Positions 25,819 through 38,382 of a stretch of DNA of 64,000 nucleotides are shown piece after piece. The position numbers were made by a program, and so were the translations under genes. The DNA comes from Hyphomicrobium sp. LHD-15 (GTDB taxonomy: Bacteria; Pseudomonadota; Alphaproteobacteria; Rhizobiales; Hyphomicrobiaceae). Below the pieces are notes generated by a model that saw nothing but the letters and a program-made list of their open reading frames with translations, ran no database searches and was not told where the DNA came from. Each line of letters begins with the position of its first letter. Within the stretch, counting starts at the first letter, position 1. The stretch is taken from positions 482,501 through 546,500 of the forward strand of contig NZ_JAVIFT010000002.1 of assembly GCF_031157355.1 (NCBI RefSeq), written 5' to 3'.

Positions 25819-27201
25819 CTAGGGTTTGCCCTGCAGGTAACCGATCCGCCCGCCGGATTCCTCGCGCAGCCGTTCGAGATGCTTCAGAAGCTCGGCGGGA
25901 TGCAGCGGGAGCCCCGTCGCTTTGACGCTGTCCTCCTCGAGATTGGCGAGGATCGGCATCAGCTGCTCGGCGGATTTGTGCAGCATCACGATGGTCGCCA
26001 CGCAGTTGCGAGTCATGTTGCGCGGGACTTTCGGGATGACGCCCGAGAGCAGGTTTTTCGCGCGGTCCGAGAGATAGCTCGACAGTCGCCCGAAGACGGC
26101 AATCAGGCTCACGAAGAAGTCTTCGCGGAAGCGGTAGTCCCGCGTCTCCATCCATTCGAAGAACTTCGTCATGATCATATCCTGCCGGCGCAGGACGGGC
26201 GTGATGCGGTAGTCCTGCCATTCGGCCACGAGATCGAAGCGCGGATCGATGTCGATGTCGCCCGGCGCATAAGTCTCCCTGGCCTTGACGCCGATGCTCT
26301 TGAAGAACTCCCGGTTCTTGTTCTGGTCGAGCCGGGTCTTGAACGCCGGCACATCGATCGCGCCACCGCTGGCGTCGGCATAGGCCTGCGAGACGAGCTT
26401 GGCGCAGAACAGAGTTTTCCGGCCCTTGAGGCGCATCGTGAAATCATAAGGGATGTGCGGCGCCTTGCCGGTCTTGGTGGCTTCGATGCGCTCATAGGCG
26501 AGCTGGGCCGCCTTGGCTGCTATCTCGGCGTCCTTGAAGCGATAGAGAACCGCGCGGCCGAGGCCGTGGTCGAGAACATGGGCAAGCGAATTGATGACCG
26601 AGCCATCCTCGATCAGCGCTTCCACGACCCAGTGCTGGCCCTGTGGGTCGATGTAGATGATCGCGGTGTGGCTGAACTGCGTGTCGACATCGCCGATGCG
26701 CGCGATCGCTGCACTGTTGTGGGCGCTGCCACGAACGAGGATGACGTCGCCCGAGCGGAACGGGATGTTGTGGCCGTTGTAGAAGGCCGGGTTGACGAGG
26801 GTGTTGTGGGCGCTGCCCGAGAAACCGCGCTTGGTTTTTTCGTCGGCGACGAGGCGCGGATTTCCGGCGGCGATTTCGCCCAGGATGTCGCTTGCGTAAC
26901 GGGCGAGGCGAAGTACGTCTCTCAGCGCCGTTTCGGCCGCGCGATCGAGCAAGCCGTTGGATTGCCAGGAGGCGATGCGGTCGCGCAGGCGGATGCGGGC
27001 GGCGAACAGGCTGTTCAGCAGATGCGGGGCAGCGCTTGCAATCTCGTAGCGGTCCGTGGCCACCACATCGGGGTCGTGAAGCGTCTGATAAAGCGTTTGC
27101 AGCGCGGCCGTGAGCTCGGCGGATGTTTCATAGCGCCCGTCTGCAACGGCGCTGATTTGTGAAAGCCGCTGTTCGATTCCGCTGATCACCGATCGCTGCA
27201 C
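25819..27201 (-). CDS. YiiX/DUF830-like permuted papain-type peptidase or amidase, large form
   Basis: A 460-aa cytoplasmic protein. The middle part (about 140-300) carries the signature of the YiiX/YebB group of permuted NlpC/P60-like enzymes: IPFRSGDVILVRGSAHNSAA, TQFSHTAIIYI (candidate catalytic His), VVEALIEDGSVIN, IPYDFTMRLKG and LFCAKLVSQAYADA (candidate Cys nucleophile). N-terminal (1-125) and C-terminal (300-460) helical regions are extra compared with the roughly 200-aa E. coli YiiX. The substrate is unknown, possibly a lipid amide or peptide bond. Confidence in the fold is higher than in the function. Confidence 0.75.
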   Translation of the reverse strand: MQRSVISGIEQRLSQISAVADGRYETSAELTAALQTLYQTLHDPDVVATDRYEIASAAPHLLNSLFAARIRLRDRIASWQSNGLLDRAAETALRDVLRLARYASDILGEIAAGNPRLVADEKTKRGFSGSAHNTLVNPAFYNGHNIPFRSGDVILVRGSAHNSAAIARIGDVDTQFSHTAIIYIDPQGQHWVVEALIEDGSVINSLAHVLDHGLGRAVLYRFKDAEIAAKAAQLAYERIEATKTGKAPHIPYDFTMRLKGRKTLFCAKLVSQAYADASGGAIDVPAFKTRLDQNKNREFFKSIGVKARETYAPGDIDIDPRFDLVAEWQDYRITPVLRRQDMIMTKFFEWMETRDYRFREDFFVSLIAVFGRLSSYLSDRAKNLLSGVIPKVPRNMTRNCVATIVMLHKSAEQLMPILANLEEDSVKATGLPLHPAELLKHLERLREESGGRIGYLQGKP

Positions 27202-27421: not shown

Positions 27422-28864
27422 TCAGCCGCCCCTCAGTGCGGCCAGAAGGTCGGGGGTGGGGTAGGAATCCGCCGGCAGTTTGTATTTTAACTGCATGGCC
27501 TTGATGGCCTGGCGGCTTTTGAGGCCGATCAGCCCGTCGATCTCGCCGACGTCGAAACCGCGCTGGGTCAGGAGCCGTTGCAGCTCCTTGGCCTCCTCGA
27601 TGTTCAGGACCGGGATGCCTTCACGGCCGCGACGCATCACGGGGGCGCCGTCAATACGGGTCGCGAGATAGGCGGCCGTCGTCGCGTAGTTGAGCGACTG
27701 GTTCCATTGCAGATAGACGTCGAAGTTAGGCAGGGCGAGGAAGGCCGGTCCGAAGCGGCCCATCGGCAATAGCAGAGATGCCTGCAGCGCATCGTTCTGG
27801 AGCGGCTCGCCGTTGGTCTGCTTCACCCCCCAGGCGGCCCATTTCGAGCGCGGATGCTTGATGGTGAGATCGGACTGATCCCATGGCAGATTTTCAGGAA
27901 CGATGACCTCCTGCAGCCACGGCTCGTTTGGCCGCCAGCCGAGATGGTGCATGTAGTTCGCGGTGGTGCCGATGATGTCGGTTGCGTTGTCGAAGAGGTC
28001 TGGGCGGCCGTCGCCGTCATAGTCGATGGCGTGCTCAAGATAGCGCGTGGGCAGGAACTGGGTCTGGCCGATTTCGCCGGCCCAGGAGCCGATCATCGTG
28101 TCGGGGGTCATGTCGCCGCGATCGATGATCTGCAGGGCGGCTTTAAGCTCATCGCGGAACATCGGGCCGCGGCGGCAATCGTAGGCCAGTGTCACCAGCG
28201 AGCGCATGATCGGCAGCTTGCCCATGCCGGCGCCGAAGTCGCTTTCGAGCGCCCAGAAGCCGGTGATTACGGCTGGGTGGACGCCATATTCCTTGACGGC
28301 ACGATCGAACGCAGCGCGGTTCTTCTGGATCTGCGCCCGCCCATTGGTCACGCGGTTGGGGGTCGCGAGCTTCGCTGAAAAGTCGAGGAAGCTCTGGGCG
28401 AAGAAGCCCTGGCGGCGATCGCGGGCGATGACGCCCTGGTCCGGCGTCATGCCGTCGAGGGCGAGCGAGATTGCGCGCTGGCTGATGCCTTCGGCGGCCG
28501 CCTCGCGCCGGAAGTCGCGCATCCAGGAGTCGAACGACCAGGAGGTTTTGCAATTGCGTGGCGCAGGGGGCGGCGGCAGACCCTTGGTCGAGACGCGGCC
28601 CGTTGCAGCGGGTACCGCCGGTGTCTGGACGGCCGCGGGCGTGGCGGCAGGGGGAGCGACTTCTGCGCTCGGTGCGGGGGCTTCTGCCGGTGCGGCGGCG
28701 GGCGCTGCGGCTGCGGCGGGAGCCGGCTGCTTTTTCTGCGGCTTTGCCTTGGGGGCGTCACGCGTGGGGCCGAACTCGATGCCCTGCGCCAGCGACGGTC
28801 CGTTTGCGACGGAGACCGAGAGAAGAGAGACGGCGGCGGCGGTTAGAACAGGAGCAAGGCGCAT
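27422..28864 (-). CDS. lytic murein transglycosylase (MltB type) with peptidoglycan-binding domain
   Basis: A 480-aa secreted enzyme that cleaves glycan strands of peptidoglycan. Order: signal peptide (MRLAPVLTAAAVSLLSVSVA), an Ala/Pro-rich linker (about 35-90), the MltB catalytic domain (about 100-390) with catalytic Glu in WALESDFGAGMG and the SWAGEIGQTQFLPTRYLEHA motif, and a C-terminal PG-binding domain (about 415-475, LLTQRGFDVGEIDGLIGLKS). The ATG at 28864 starts the signal peptide; an ATG 11 codons earlier is less likely. Confidence 0.92.
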   Translation of the reverse strand: MRLAPVLTAAAVSLLSVSVANGPSLAQGIEFGPTRDAPKAKPQKKQPAPAAAAAPAAAPAEAPAPSAEVAPPAATPAAVQTPAVPAATGRVSTKGLPPPPAPRNCKTSWSFDSWMRDFRREAAAEGISQRAISLALDGMTPDQGVIARDRRQGFFAQSFLDFSAKLATPNRVTNGRAQIQKNRAAFDRAVKEYGVHPAVITGFWALESDFGAGMGKLPIMRSLVTLAYDCRRGPMFRDELKAALQIIDRGDMTPDTMIGSWAGEIGQTQFLPTRYLEHAIDYDGDGRPDLFDNATDIIGTTANYMHHLGWRPNEPWLQEVIVPENLPWDQSDLTIKHPRSKWAAWGVKQTNGEPLQNDALQASLLLPMGRFGPAFLALPNFDVYLQWNQSLNYATTAAYLATRIDGAPVMRRGREGIPVLNIEEAKELQRLLTQRGFDVGEIDGLIGLKSRQAIKAMQLKYKLPADSYPTPDLLAALRGG

Positions 28865-28949
28865 TTCGGTCCTTCCGAAGCTCAGTTTCGCCGCCACTCA
28901 TGCCGACCGATATGGCGGCGTCAAGACGCCAGGACGTCTTGGAAGCCCG

Positions 28950-28987
28950 AAAAATGAAGGCGCAGGCTGGTGATGCCTGCGCCTTTG
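28950..28987 (-). terminator. terminator after the six-Cys peptide gene
   Basis: An 11-bp stem (AAGGCGCAGGC at 28957-28967 with GCCTGCGCCTT at 28975-28985) is followed on the minus strand by TTCATTTTT. It lies 22 bases beyond the stop of the 106-aa gene, making that gene a single-gene transcript. Confidence 0.75.
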
Positions 28988-29008
28988 TAACCGTATGAGA
29001 GGGGTGTC

Positions 29009-29329
29009 TCAGCAGCGATCGCGGCAGGCTTGGCGGGCCGCCTCGGCCGCGGCGATGCAGACGGCGGTTGCGGCGCCGCCGGTATTTGCCGTGCACCATG
29101 CGACGGCTGCTGCGGCTACGGTGTCGCAAGCGGCTTTGCAAAGGTCTTTCAGCGGGTTCCACTGAGGCTCCAGCAGCGTTTCCGCCGTGAATTCAGGCAC
29201 GCCGGGATCGCCGATGATCCGATCCGTTGCTCTCAATGCGCCGGTGGCCCTCAGGCCGGAGACAATCTTCTCCTTTTCGGCTTCCGAAACGTTATCCCAT
29301 TGATGTTTATTGACTTTAATATCCGTCAT
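29009..29329 (-). CDS. 106-aa peptide precursor-like protein with symmetric six-Cys Ala-rich C-terminus
   Basis: The N-terminal half (residues 1-56, MTDIKVNKHQWDNVSEAEKE...) is polar, charged and without a signal peptide. The C-terminal half (about 57-106) is rich in Ala with six Cys spaced C-x3-C-x10-C-x11-C-x10-C-x3-C, a mirror-symmetric pattern that would let Cys1-6, 2-5 and 3-4 pair and staple a helical hairpin, as in saposin-like folds. The ATG at 29329 has GTGAGG upstream and the gene has its own terminator and divergent promoter region with lepA. Leader plus Cys-rich core recalls bacteriocin or RiPP precursors, but no maturation or export genes are adjacent. Function unknown. Confidence 0.78.
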   Translation of the reverse strand: MTDIKVNKHQWDNVSEAEKEKIVSGLRATGALRATDRIIGDPGVPEFTAETLLEPQWNPLKDLCKAACDTVAAAAVAWCTANTGGAATAVCIAAAEAARQACRDRC

Positions 29330-29507
29330 GACGTCCTCACTCTAAGGATGCAGAGACGGCTTTAGTTAAATCTTAAATTGTATTTTTCATCAATCACAAT
29401 TAGAGGCTGTCTCCCTTCGAGTCTGATCGTTTTGGGCGGCAATTCGTGTCCGCTCGGTGCTGCGATCTCCCTTTTTCCTCGGCGTGCGAGGTGATAAGCA
29501 CGCGCGC

Positions 29508-31310
29508 ATGACCGACATCTCATTGATCCGAAATTTCTCCATCATCGCGCACATCGATCACGGCAAGTCGACGCTGTCGGACCGGCTGATCCAAATCTGC
29601 GGCAACGTCTCGAACCGCGAGATGAAAGAGCAGATCCTCGATTCCATGGATATCGAGCGCGAGCGGGGCATCACCATCAAGGCGCAGACCGTGCGCCTCG
29701 ACTACAAGCACTCGGACGGAAAAATCTATCAGCTCAATCTGATGGATACGCCCGGGCACGTGGACTTCGCCTACGAGGTGTCGCGCTCATTGGCGGCCTG
29801 CGAAGGCGCAATCCTGGTCGTGGACGCAAGCCAGGGCGTGGAAGCGCAGACGCTCGCCAACGTGTACCAGGCGCTCGACAACGACCTCGAGATCCTGCCG
29901 GTCCTGAACAAGGTCGACCTGCCGTCGGCGGACGAAGACCGCGTGAAGCAGCAGATCGAAGACGTCATCGGCATCGACGCTTCGGAAGCGATCGGCGTTT
30001 CGGCGAAGACCGGCCTCAACGTGGAAGCCGTGCTCGGGGCGATCGTGGAGCGTCTTCCGCCGCCCAAGGGCGATCCGGACAAGCCGCTCAAGGCCATGCT
30101 GGTCGATAGCTGGTACGACGCGTACCTCGGCGTCGTGGTTCTGGTCCGCATCATCGACGGCACGCTCAAGCGTGGCCAGAAGGTGCAGATGATGGCGACG
30201 GGCGGCCACTATCAGGTGGAGCGCATCGGCATTTTCCGGCCCAAGCAGGAAATGCTCACGGAGCTGGGGCCGGGCGAGGTCGGCTTCTTCACGGCCGCGA
30301 TCAAGGAAGTGGCCGATACGCGTGTCGGCGACACCGTCACCGACGAGAAGAACCCGACGCCGGAGCCGCTGCCGGGCTTCAAGCCGGCGCAGCCGGTGGT
30401 GTTCTGCGGTCTGTTTCCGGTCGATGCGGCCGACTTCGAGGATCTGCGCGATGCGATGGGGCGGTTGCGCCTCAACGACGCGAGCTTCTCGTTCGAGACC
30501 GAGACTTCGGCGGCGCTGGGCTTCGGCTTCCGTTGCGGTTTCCTCGGGCTCCTGCATCTCGAGATCATCACCGAGCGCTTGGAGCGCGAGTTCAATCTCG
30601 ATCTCATTACGACCGCGCCGTCGGTCATCTATCACCTGCACATGACCGATGGATCGATGGTCGAGCTGCACAATCCGGCCGACATGCCGGATACGGTGCG
30701 CATCGATCATATCGAAGAGCCCTGGATCGAGGCGACGATCCTCGTGCCGGACGAATATCTCGGCGCGGTGCTGAAGCTTTGCCAGGACCGCCGGGGCCGC
30801 CAGAAGCAGCTCACCTACGTCGGCACGCGCGCCATGCTGATCTACGAACTGCCGCTCAACGAAGTGGTGTTCGACTTCTACGACCGGCTGAAGTCGGTCT
30901 CGCGCGGCTATGCGTCGTTCGACTATCACATCAAGGGCTACGAGGAGAACGAGCTCGTCAAGCTGTCTATCCTCGTCAACGACGAGCCGGTGGATGCGCT
31001 TTCTATGATCGTGCACCGGACGCGGGCGGAGAGCCGGGGACGCGCGATGTGCGAGAAGCTCAAGGAGCTGATCCGCCCGCACCTGTTCAAGATTCCGATC
31101 CAGGCGGCGATCGGCGGCAAGGTCATTGCGCGCGAGACCATCAGCGCGCTTCGCAAGGACGTGATCGCCAAGTGCTATGGCGGCGACATTACCCGCAAGC
31201 GCAAGCTGCTCGACAAGCAGAAGGCCGGCAAGAAGAAGATGCGCGAGTTCGGCAAGGTCGAGATCCCGCAGGAAGCCTTCATTGCCGCGCTCAAGATGGA
31301 CGAGAACTAG
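29508..31310 (+). CDS. lepA: elongation factor 4 (LepA)
   Basis: A 600-aa ribosome GTPase. G motifs are intact: [14 protein letters not shown] (G1), [13 protein letters not shown] (G3), NKVDLPSAD (G4), GVSAKTGL (G5). The LepA-specific C-terminal domain ends [20 protein letters not shown]...EVPQEAF-type. It back-translocates or rescues stalled ribosomes and affects initiation. The ATG at 29508 matches the normal start ([20 protein letters not shown]); the frame is open for 17 codons upstream but lacks family sequence. GAGGTGAT lies upstream. Confidence 0.98.
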
Positions 31311-35589: not shown

Positions 35590-38016
<2,427 letters not shown>

Positions 38017-38050
38017 GGCATGTGCTCCAATCGAACTTGAGACTTCCGAT

Positions 38051-38096
38051 ATACCCTGTGGGGGTATTGATTGACAGGTATACCCCCGCAGGGTAT
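38051..38096. promoter_or_regulatory. double palindromic CsoR-type operator and promoter region
   Basis: Two 17-base near-palindromes, ATACCCTGTGGGGGTAT (38051-38067) and ATACCCCCGCAGGGTAT (38080-38096), are reverse complements of each other with one mismatch. They fit the G-rich pseudo-palindromes bound by CsoR-family repressors. A TTGACA at 38071-38076 lies between the two sites, with TATTCG 17 bases later as a possible -10 for csoR; site 2 then covers the spacer. Site 1 can serve copA leftwards. Confidence 0.82.
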
Positions 38097-38106
38097 TCGT
38101 CAAGGC

Positions 38107-38382
38107 ATGATAAAAGCTTCGAAAACCTCTCGCCTCAAGCGCCTCTCCCGCATCGAAGGTCAGGTGCGGGGGCTCAGCCGTATGGTCGAGGAGGATCGCT
38201 ATTGCATCGAAATCGTGACGCAGATCGCGGCCGTACGGGCCGCTTTGAGGCGCGTGGAAGAAGATGTGCTGCGGGACCATATCTCCCATTGCGTCGCGCA
38301 TGCGATGGCAAGCGGGGACGCGGCTGAGCAGACGAAGAAGATCGATGAATTGATGGACGTGTTGGCGCGCAGTGCGCGTTGA
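38107..38382 (+). CDS. csoR: CsoR/RcnR/FrmR-family metal-sensing repressor
   Basis: A 91-aa all-helical repressor beginning [20 protein letters not shown]. It has the family pattern: [20 protein letters not shown] with the first Cys, and HCVAHAM giving the His-Cys pair of the Cu(I) site (C-H-C). Metal binding would release DNA and open copA. The ATG at 38107 is 11 bases after operator 2. FrmR (formaldehyde sensor) is in the same family, but the copper-ATPase neighbour and operators favour a copper role. Confidence 0.9.

Follow-up and report, generated by a model that had tools for sequence, protein, structure and literature searches.

A small-protein gene of Hyphomicrobium sp. LHD-15 belongs to a patchy family whose mirror-symmetric six-cysteine grid would fit a stapled helical hairpin

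The DNA analysed here, referred to as the window, is a stretch of 64,000 nucleotides from Hyphomicrobium sp. LHD-15. It carries the only copy in the host genome of a gene for a small six-cysteine protein, located between a lytic transglycosylase gene and lepA (Table 1). The last cysteine of the protein is also its C-terminal residue. In agreement with a preliminary description of the locus, the gene has a ribosome site of its own; no sigma-70-like promoter was found for it by the promoter scan. As to the terminator claimed in the same description, a terminator-like stem-loop is present, with a long stem of 11 bp that contains 8 G–C pairs, but the scan count (one stem versus 0.7 ± 0.8 in shuffled sequences) is not above chance. 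The G–C content of the gene is 61.6% versus 61.8% for the window, and the 131 bases 5' of the gene are AT-richer (G–C content, 45.8%). Two genes away (25819–27201, minus strand) lies the gene of a 460-aa protein whose central part is a Peptidase_C92 (YaeF/YiiX) domain and whose flanks are unassigned, and a heavy-metal P-type ATPase gene is found at 35590–38301, 6 kb from the small gene.

Table 1. Features of the small-protein gene region in the window and of the related locus in genome G033.
Feature	Position	Strand	Basis or remark
Six-cysteine small protein CDS, two-part	29009–29329	−	106 aa, ATG start; ORF list and selection test
N-terminal part, residues 1–51	29177–29329	−	AlphaFold, single sequence; putative leader/recognition role
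C-terminal six-cysteine stretch, predicted helical hairpin	29012–29140	−	Cysteine pattern and AlphaFold
Shine-Dalgarno-like GAGGA	29334–29338	−	Upstream bases, 4 nt before ATG
Terminator-like stem-loop	28957–28985	−	11-bp stem, loop of 7, ATTTTT; stem scan
541-bp stretch enclosing the gene	28928–29468	n/a	Comparison with sister species G065
Lytic transglycosylase gene MltB_2	27422–28897	−	Flanks the small gene; Pfam/NCBIfam
lepA	29457–31310	+	Flanks the small gene on the other side
G033 family gene, middle of three six-cysteine ORFs	L170: 9731–9952	+	Profile match
G033 row of three small six-cysteine ORFs	L170: 9548–9718, 9731–9952, 10001–10198	+	Good ribosome site each

Comparison with a related gene from a Paracoccus plasmid revealed saturated synonymous sites (pS, 0.864) and a pN of 0.285, with 72 of the 134 differences at third codon positions, which indicates that the window gene encodes a protein under purifying selection. 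Between the same two proteins, 31 of 45 positions are conserved in the C-terminal core and 34 of 61 in the N-terminal half. In many leader/core pairs, it is the leader that is better conserved, and thus the higher conservation of the core counts against a leader-plus-core precursor.

The gene is patchily distributed. Against the sister species G065, alignment of the flanks ends at window position 28927 and resumes at 29469, with 132 bp in G065 in place of the 541 bp of the window; a forced alignment was made, and these 132 bp have no local match to the window stretch. The gene is therefore present or absent at one and the same site. Within the genus, the other seven genomes searched (G063–G069) gave no strong match to the window protein, and the DNA of the 541-bp stretch has no match on plasmids.

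The preliminary description regarded the protein as an orphan, a view that can no longer be held, as six related genes were found at five other loci. The family thus comprises seven genes at six loci (the window, the Paracoccus plasmid, and genomes G292, G568, G670 and G033), with 27–61% identity to the window protein in a six-row alignment from which G033 was left out. The full-length relative found by tblastn on the 24.5-kb Paracoccus plasmid NZ_CP034818.1 has 61% identity, equal length and equal cysteine spacing. G568 carries two divergent genes (G568a and G568b) adjoining each other about 170 bp apart. All six cysteines are kept in five of the relatives; in the sixth, from G292 (L027: 1498–1785, plus strand), TGA stands exactly in place of the first cysteine codon and the remaining frame is open. 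Selenocysteine at this TGA was considered and rejected, and the triplet was taken as a nonsense codon, because the best SelB match in G292 (185.8 bits) is below the cut-off of 242.25 bits. Outside alphaproteobacteria, a broken relative was found in four Pseudomonas aeruginosa plasmid records (about 5990–6300 in L023 and L024), its pieces lying in different frames in the two records inspected. Taken together, the plasmid copy, the broken copies, the TGA copy and the absence from G065 suggest an accessory gene, subject to gain and loss. On the Paracoccus plasmid, 25 bp upstream of the relative, a 74-aa ORF (P0003; L022: 1375–1599, plus strand) ends in C-x3-C-x10-C-x3-C-G, a half-size mirror-symmetric pattern (3-10-3); P0003 has no relatives on other plasmids.

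Patchiness, a plasmid-borne copy, the adjoining divergent pair in G568 and the broken Pseudomonas relative would also suit a stapled structural or partner-binding mini-protein (e.g., an inhibitor or antidote), either cytoplasmic or belonging to a mobile element, in which disulfides would form only in oxidative stress, as a redox switch. We consider such a role improbable; no conserved partner gene was seen among the neighbours checked at the family loci, namely MltB-type/lepA, plasmid genes, RF-1-type/TPR, BA14K/thiC, DUF4197/aminotransferase, and PatA/PatG.

Profile searches were run on overlapping draws of genomes, with E-values calculated per genome. In 397 genomes of the order, the profile recovered the host and G292 (two further matches were rejected); in 199 genomes of another family, G292 and G568 (G568a E-value, 5.4 × 10−13); and in the genus of G568, one of nine genomes. 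In 385 genomes of the class, only the host was recovered, G670 being present in the draw and missed by the three-row profile, and in 398 genomes of the phylum, the host, G292 and G670 (E-value, 4 × 10−5). When the 397 genomes of the order were searched again, the host, G292 and G033 (E-value, 0.003) were obtained, with four further matches rejected. Since an E-value of 0.003 per genome corresponds to about one chance match in 397 genomes, this score alone is no proof of the kinship of G033. The single-protein search of 103 genomes of the taxonomic family of the host returned the host gene as the only strong match.

Several candidates were discarded. Weak matches were present in 25 of these 103 genomes (E-value ≤ 0.1; ≥ 0.013 for all but the host), and the 19 loci L003–L021, which cover part of the weak-match places, lack the cysteine pattern. 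The matches in G244 and G270 (E-values, 1 × 10−4 to 3 × 10−4) fall inside a metallo-hydrolase-like frame (L026) or translate to nothing alike on the given strand (L025), and the loci of the profile matches in G091, G243, G260 and G429 lack the cysteine pattern. The plasmid matches of P0006 (E-value, 0.7) and of the G670 protein (E-value, 0.09) concern unrelated plasmids and are not credible, and P0007 and the G033 middle peptide have no plasmid match. Scans of genome contigs revealed no relatives. Pfam, NCBIfam and PHROGs gave no credible match to the window protein, two pattern-plus-tblastn scans of viral contigs found no relative, and neither phages, searched with the Paracoccus protein, nor PHROGs contained one. 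A six-TGC scan of viral contigs gave at least 203 matches in at least 120 stretches; among the matches listed, none is in an open frame and those inspected are mostly TGC/TGA repeats.

The mirror-symmetric spacing C-x3-C-x10-C-x11-C-x10-C-x3-C pointed out in the preliminary description was confirmed in the open reading frame. At the DNA level, the window contains a single instance of this pattern, and none of 100 dinucleotide shuffles contains it. The background set consisted of 187 loci outside the list of family loci (1,355,558 bases; 5300 ATG ORFs of at least 45 aa), 120 of which are viral stretches chosen by TGC pattern; here, C-x3-C-x10-C-x4..16-C-x10-C-x3-C was encountered twice, both times in duplicates of the G033 family gene (L173 and L175). 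The loci examined and the window together contain 102 ATG ORFs of 60–130 aa with exactly six cysteines (duplicates counted), and all 18 mirror-symmetric ones are family genes. The spacing 3-10-11-10-3 is shared by the window, Paracoccus and G568a proteins, and by that of G292 if TGA is counted as the first cysteine, while 3-10-10-10-3 is found in G568b, 3-10-9-10-3 in G033, and 3-10-7-10-3 in G670 (a further cysteine in its N-terminal half set aside). The 3-10 and 10-3 arms are thus constant in all seven genes, and the centre alone differs (7, 9, 10 or 11 residues). Neither of the two results that the preliminary description had named as refuting it was obtained: apart from the nonsense codon of G292, the cysteine pattern is complete in every relative, and no match to a known metal-binding family appeared.

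With fixed arms and only the central gap variable, each of the seven proteins has equal position sums for C1/C6, C2/C5 and C3/C4 (the G292 TGA counted, the seventh cysteine of G670 set aside). Residues whose positions add up to the same sum lie opposite one another in an antiparallel hairpin, and one face of a helix is shared by positions i, i+4 and i+15 (by arithmetic, 0, 40 and 60 degrees, with each residue turning the helix by 100 degrees). Hence, constant arms around a variable centre would fit three cross-helix rungs with an adjustable loop, that is, an antiparallel helical hairpin with nested pairs 1–6, 2–5 and 3–4.

Prediction by AlphaFold from the single sequence placed helices at residues 49–82 and 86–105, separated by a three-residue break. 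The pLDDT is about 90–93 over most of both helices and 84.8 for the whole model (82.5 down to 60.7 for the other four of the five models), with a pTM of only 0.46. The model was read for the helices only, and we infer the packing of these helices and the disulfides of the window protein. The nested hairpin proposed in the preliminary description is supported insofar as the position sums are equal and two helices are predicted. The N-terminal part is predicted, also from the single sequence, as a small beta-alpha-alpha-beta unit (residues 3–41; pLDDT, 87.9; pTM, 0.56). Foldseek found no match at E-value ≤ 0.001 for the whole model in PDB and viral structures, or for the N-terminal part in PDB. 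The likeness to saposin folds that had been suggested was not upheld, as saposin A (4ddj) is matched only at an E-value of 4.0; another weak fold match is the copper storage protein Csp1 (E-value, 9.7). The best hits of a PDB sequence search, a nanobody (E-value, 0.055) and RecA (E-value, 0.47), are not credible.

As had been noted, a signal peptide is absent by hydropathy: the highest mean Kyte-Doolittle value over 12 residues within the first 45 is 0.77, versus 2.26 for the neighbouring MltB-type protein. There is no Gly-Gly between the two halves. With regard to peptidase or transport genes near the relatives, which the preliminary description had brought up, peptidase-like neighbours are present at three of the six loci, but only the G033 protease is of a family known to mature peptides; the C92 protein of the window and the Peptidase_Mx and alpha/beta hydrolase neighbours in G568 are not known leader peptidases, and no peptidase-like genes were found among the neighbours checked at the Paracoccus, G292 and G670 loci. 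At the family loci, none of the neighbours scanned or annotated, among them 11 window neighbours scanned with Pfam, was recognised as a peptide exporter.

The main rival explanation is a cytosolic thiol- or metal-binding hairpin, the dimer of which would be a four-helix bundle with 12 inward cysteines holding Cu(I) or Zn; it would work like a copper storage protein, with the N-terminal part being structural or partner-binding. The missing signal peptide, the lack of a recognised peptide exporter near the gene, the predicted fold of the N-terminal half, and the heavy-metal ATPase gene 6 kb off are in line with this explanation, and CxxxC on helices with rungs of equal height would suit metal sites as well. 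However, no known metal-binding family of Pfam or NCBIfam is matched, the Csp1 fold match is insignificant, and neither the mirrored spacing nor the genomic context in G033 is specially expected of such a protein. Furthermore, PMC7558416 gives 13 to 20 Cu(I) for each Csp monomer, as opposed to six cysteines here. On balance, a metal-binding hairpin appears unlikely.

The (D/N)IxV....W motif of the N-terminal part is found in five of the seven genes, is degenerate in G670 and absent in G033. This part is 52–63 residues long in six of the genes and 32 in G033, and the core comprises 39–43 residues. The relatedness of the cores was assessed at their 26 non-cysteine arm positions by 5000 composition-preserving shuffles, the cysteine columns being left out. 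Of the 21 core pairs, 14 gave p < 0.05 and seven did not. The window core is close to those of Paracoccus, G568b, G292 and G033 and not to G568a (p = 0.13) or G670 (p = 0.28), whereas the G568a and G670 cores resemble each other (p = 0.0004). G568a is tied to the family mainly by its N-terminal half and the cysteine grid, and G670 mainly via G568a.

In G033, a 633-aa protease ends 28 bp before the first of three small six-cysteine ORFs (region L170: 7618–10198, plus strand). It exceeds the NCBIfam PatA/PatG cut-off (442.6 versus 421.05 bits) and has Pfam S8, PatG_D and PatG_C matches. In cyanobactin systems, according to PMC10885120, enzymes of the PatG type both cleave and cyclise peptides. 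Neither the window protein nor the G033 peptides match a precursor family of Pfam or NCBIfam over the cut-off, and no heterocyclisation gene is present among the few G033 neighbours scanned. Among the 103 genomes of the host's taxonomic family, G033 alone has PatA/PatG above the cut-off; some subtilase match at E-value ≤ 1 × 10−20 occurs in 20 of them. Cys-rich small ORFs missing from the gene tables were also observed directly 3' of PatA/PatG proteases in Gloeocapsa pGLO7428.01 (L198: 7939–8244, plus strand) and Acaryochloris pREC1 (L197: 7999–8187, plus strand); none directly follows the protease in the Gloeothece locus (L199). Their starts, M-K-L-P (at an inner Met in Gloeocapsa) and M-R-I-P, resemble M-R-L-P and M-Q-L-P of G033, suggesting that such proteases may also serve disulfide-rich peptides.

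The middle G033 gene has a core similar to that of the window protein behind a different N-terminus, and we read the window family and G033 as sharing one core to which two different types of N-terminus are joined. It is possible that G033 is instead a separate system of cyanobactin-like type, in which the middle peptide arrived at the spacing independently; this is compatible with the other readings and would leave the window family with no link to a maturation protease. The different N-terminus, the weak E-value among 397 genomes and the ease with which Ala-rich cores resemble each other are consistent with independence. So is the lack of a PatA/PatG-like protease in all four other genomes searched (the host, G568, G292 and G670; Paracoccus was left out), the host having only a distant subtilase (E-value, 8 × 10−10). 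On the other hand, the cores of G033 and the window protein share 49% identity, which makes G033 the third closest of six, and, with the cysteine columns excluded, the G033 core gave shuffle p-values of 0.0004 against the window, 0.0054 against Paracoccus and 0.0032 against G568b, in a test made after G033 had been picked for similarity by the profile. We regard independence as rather unlikely. The separate leader half of the preliminary description gains support insofar as the core occurs behind a different N-terminus in G033, but the N-terminal half of the window protein is predicted as a folded unit rather than a loose leader.

Based on these observations, we propose that the window gene may encode a leader-plus-core precursor of an exported, processed and disulfide-stapled peptide. 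The N-terminal part would serve recognition and precede a core that would fold as an antiparallel Ala-rich helical hairpin. Once in an oxidising place outside the cytoplasm, the hairpin would be locked by the rungs C1–C6, C2–C5 and C3–C4, and the cleaved core would act between cells as a bacteriocin-like or signalling peptide, the gene being an accessory one that hosts acquire and lose. The mirrored cysteine grid, the separable halves, the Paracoccus ORF P0003 and the G033 protease support an exported stapled peptide, whereas the lack of a signal peptide, of a peptide exporter among the neighbours scanned, of Gly-Gly and of a host PatA/PatG protease counts against it. We hold this proposal to be a real possibility, at slightly less than an even chance. 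More tentatively, and with considerable doubt, the family might represent an undescribed bacterial scaffold, a triple-rung stapled hairpin with exchangeable N-terminal parts that is exported and used between cells; the exchangeable parts would be, for solitary genes, a folded domain bearing (D/N)IxV-W and, beside a PatA/PatG-type protease, a short leader.

The literature search found no described bacterial family of this cysteine spacing. Double-glycine class II bacteriocins have a Gly-Gly before the core and a C39 peptidase/ABC exporter nearby; unlike these, the window protein has no Gly-Gly, and no exporter is present among its 11 scanned neighbours. The G033 locus resembles cyanobactin systems in that small Cys-rich ORFs, their N-termini short, come after a PatA/PatG protease, but differs in that the peptides have no precursor-family match, and the host genome lacks such a protease. 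If the link to PatA/PatG-type enzymes is true, disulfide peptides would seem to be among the substrates of this protease family. In copper storage proteins, cysteines likewise line the helices, but the window protein has far fewer of them, only two predicted helices, and no family or significant fold match. Saposin-like proteins also contain six cysteines, paired 1–6, 2–5 and 3–4, a pairing that the equal position sums of the window protein would fit; they have four to five helices with long unequal spacings, whereas the cysteine part of the window protein consists of two long predicted helices. The eukaryotic mitochondrial twin CX9C (CHCH) proteins are helical hairpins with two disulfides and C-x9-C in each helix, as compared with three possible rungs in the window protein.

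To our knowledge, plants and mitochondria are the main known sources of helical hairpins stapled by disulfides. The plant alpha-hairpinins are described in PMC11591084 as helix-loop-helix peptides with the motif C-x3-C-xn-C-x3-C, the core of which is freed from a longer precursor; for six-cysteine plant motifs, a legend in the same source gives 3-3-10-3-3 as the most prevalent. The window protein is similar in having CxxxC on each predicted helix, and it would also share the helix-loop-helix fold and the freeing of a core from a longer precursor. It differs in being bacterial, in having no signal peptide, and in two further cysteines located 11 residues inward, which would allow three rungs. 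With 3-10-11-10-3, the outer CxxxC pairs are present, but the alpha-hairpinin motif (x being any residue other than Cys) is not matched. The closest kind known is the fold of the alpha-hairpinins, of which the window family, by its cysteine motif, is no member; if the proposed pairing is true, bacteria would have in this three-rung family a natural scaffold that is compact and stable, its arms fixed and its loop adjustable.
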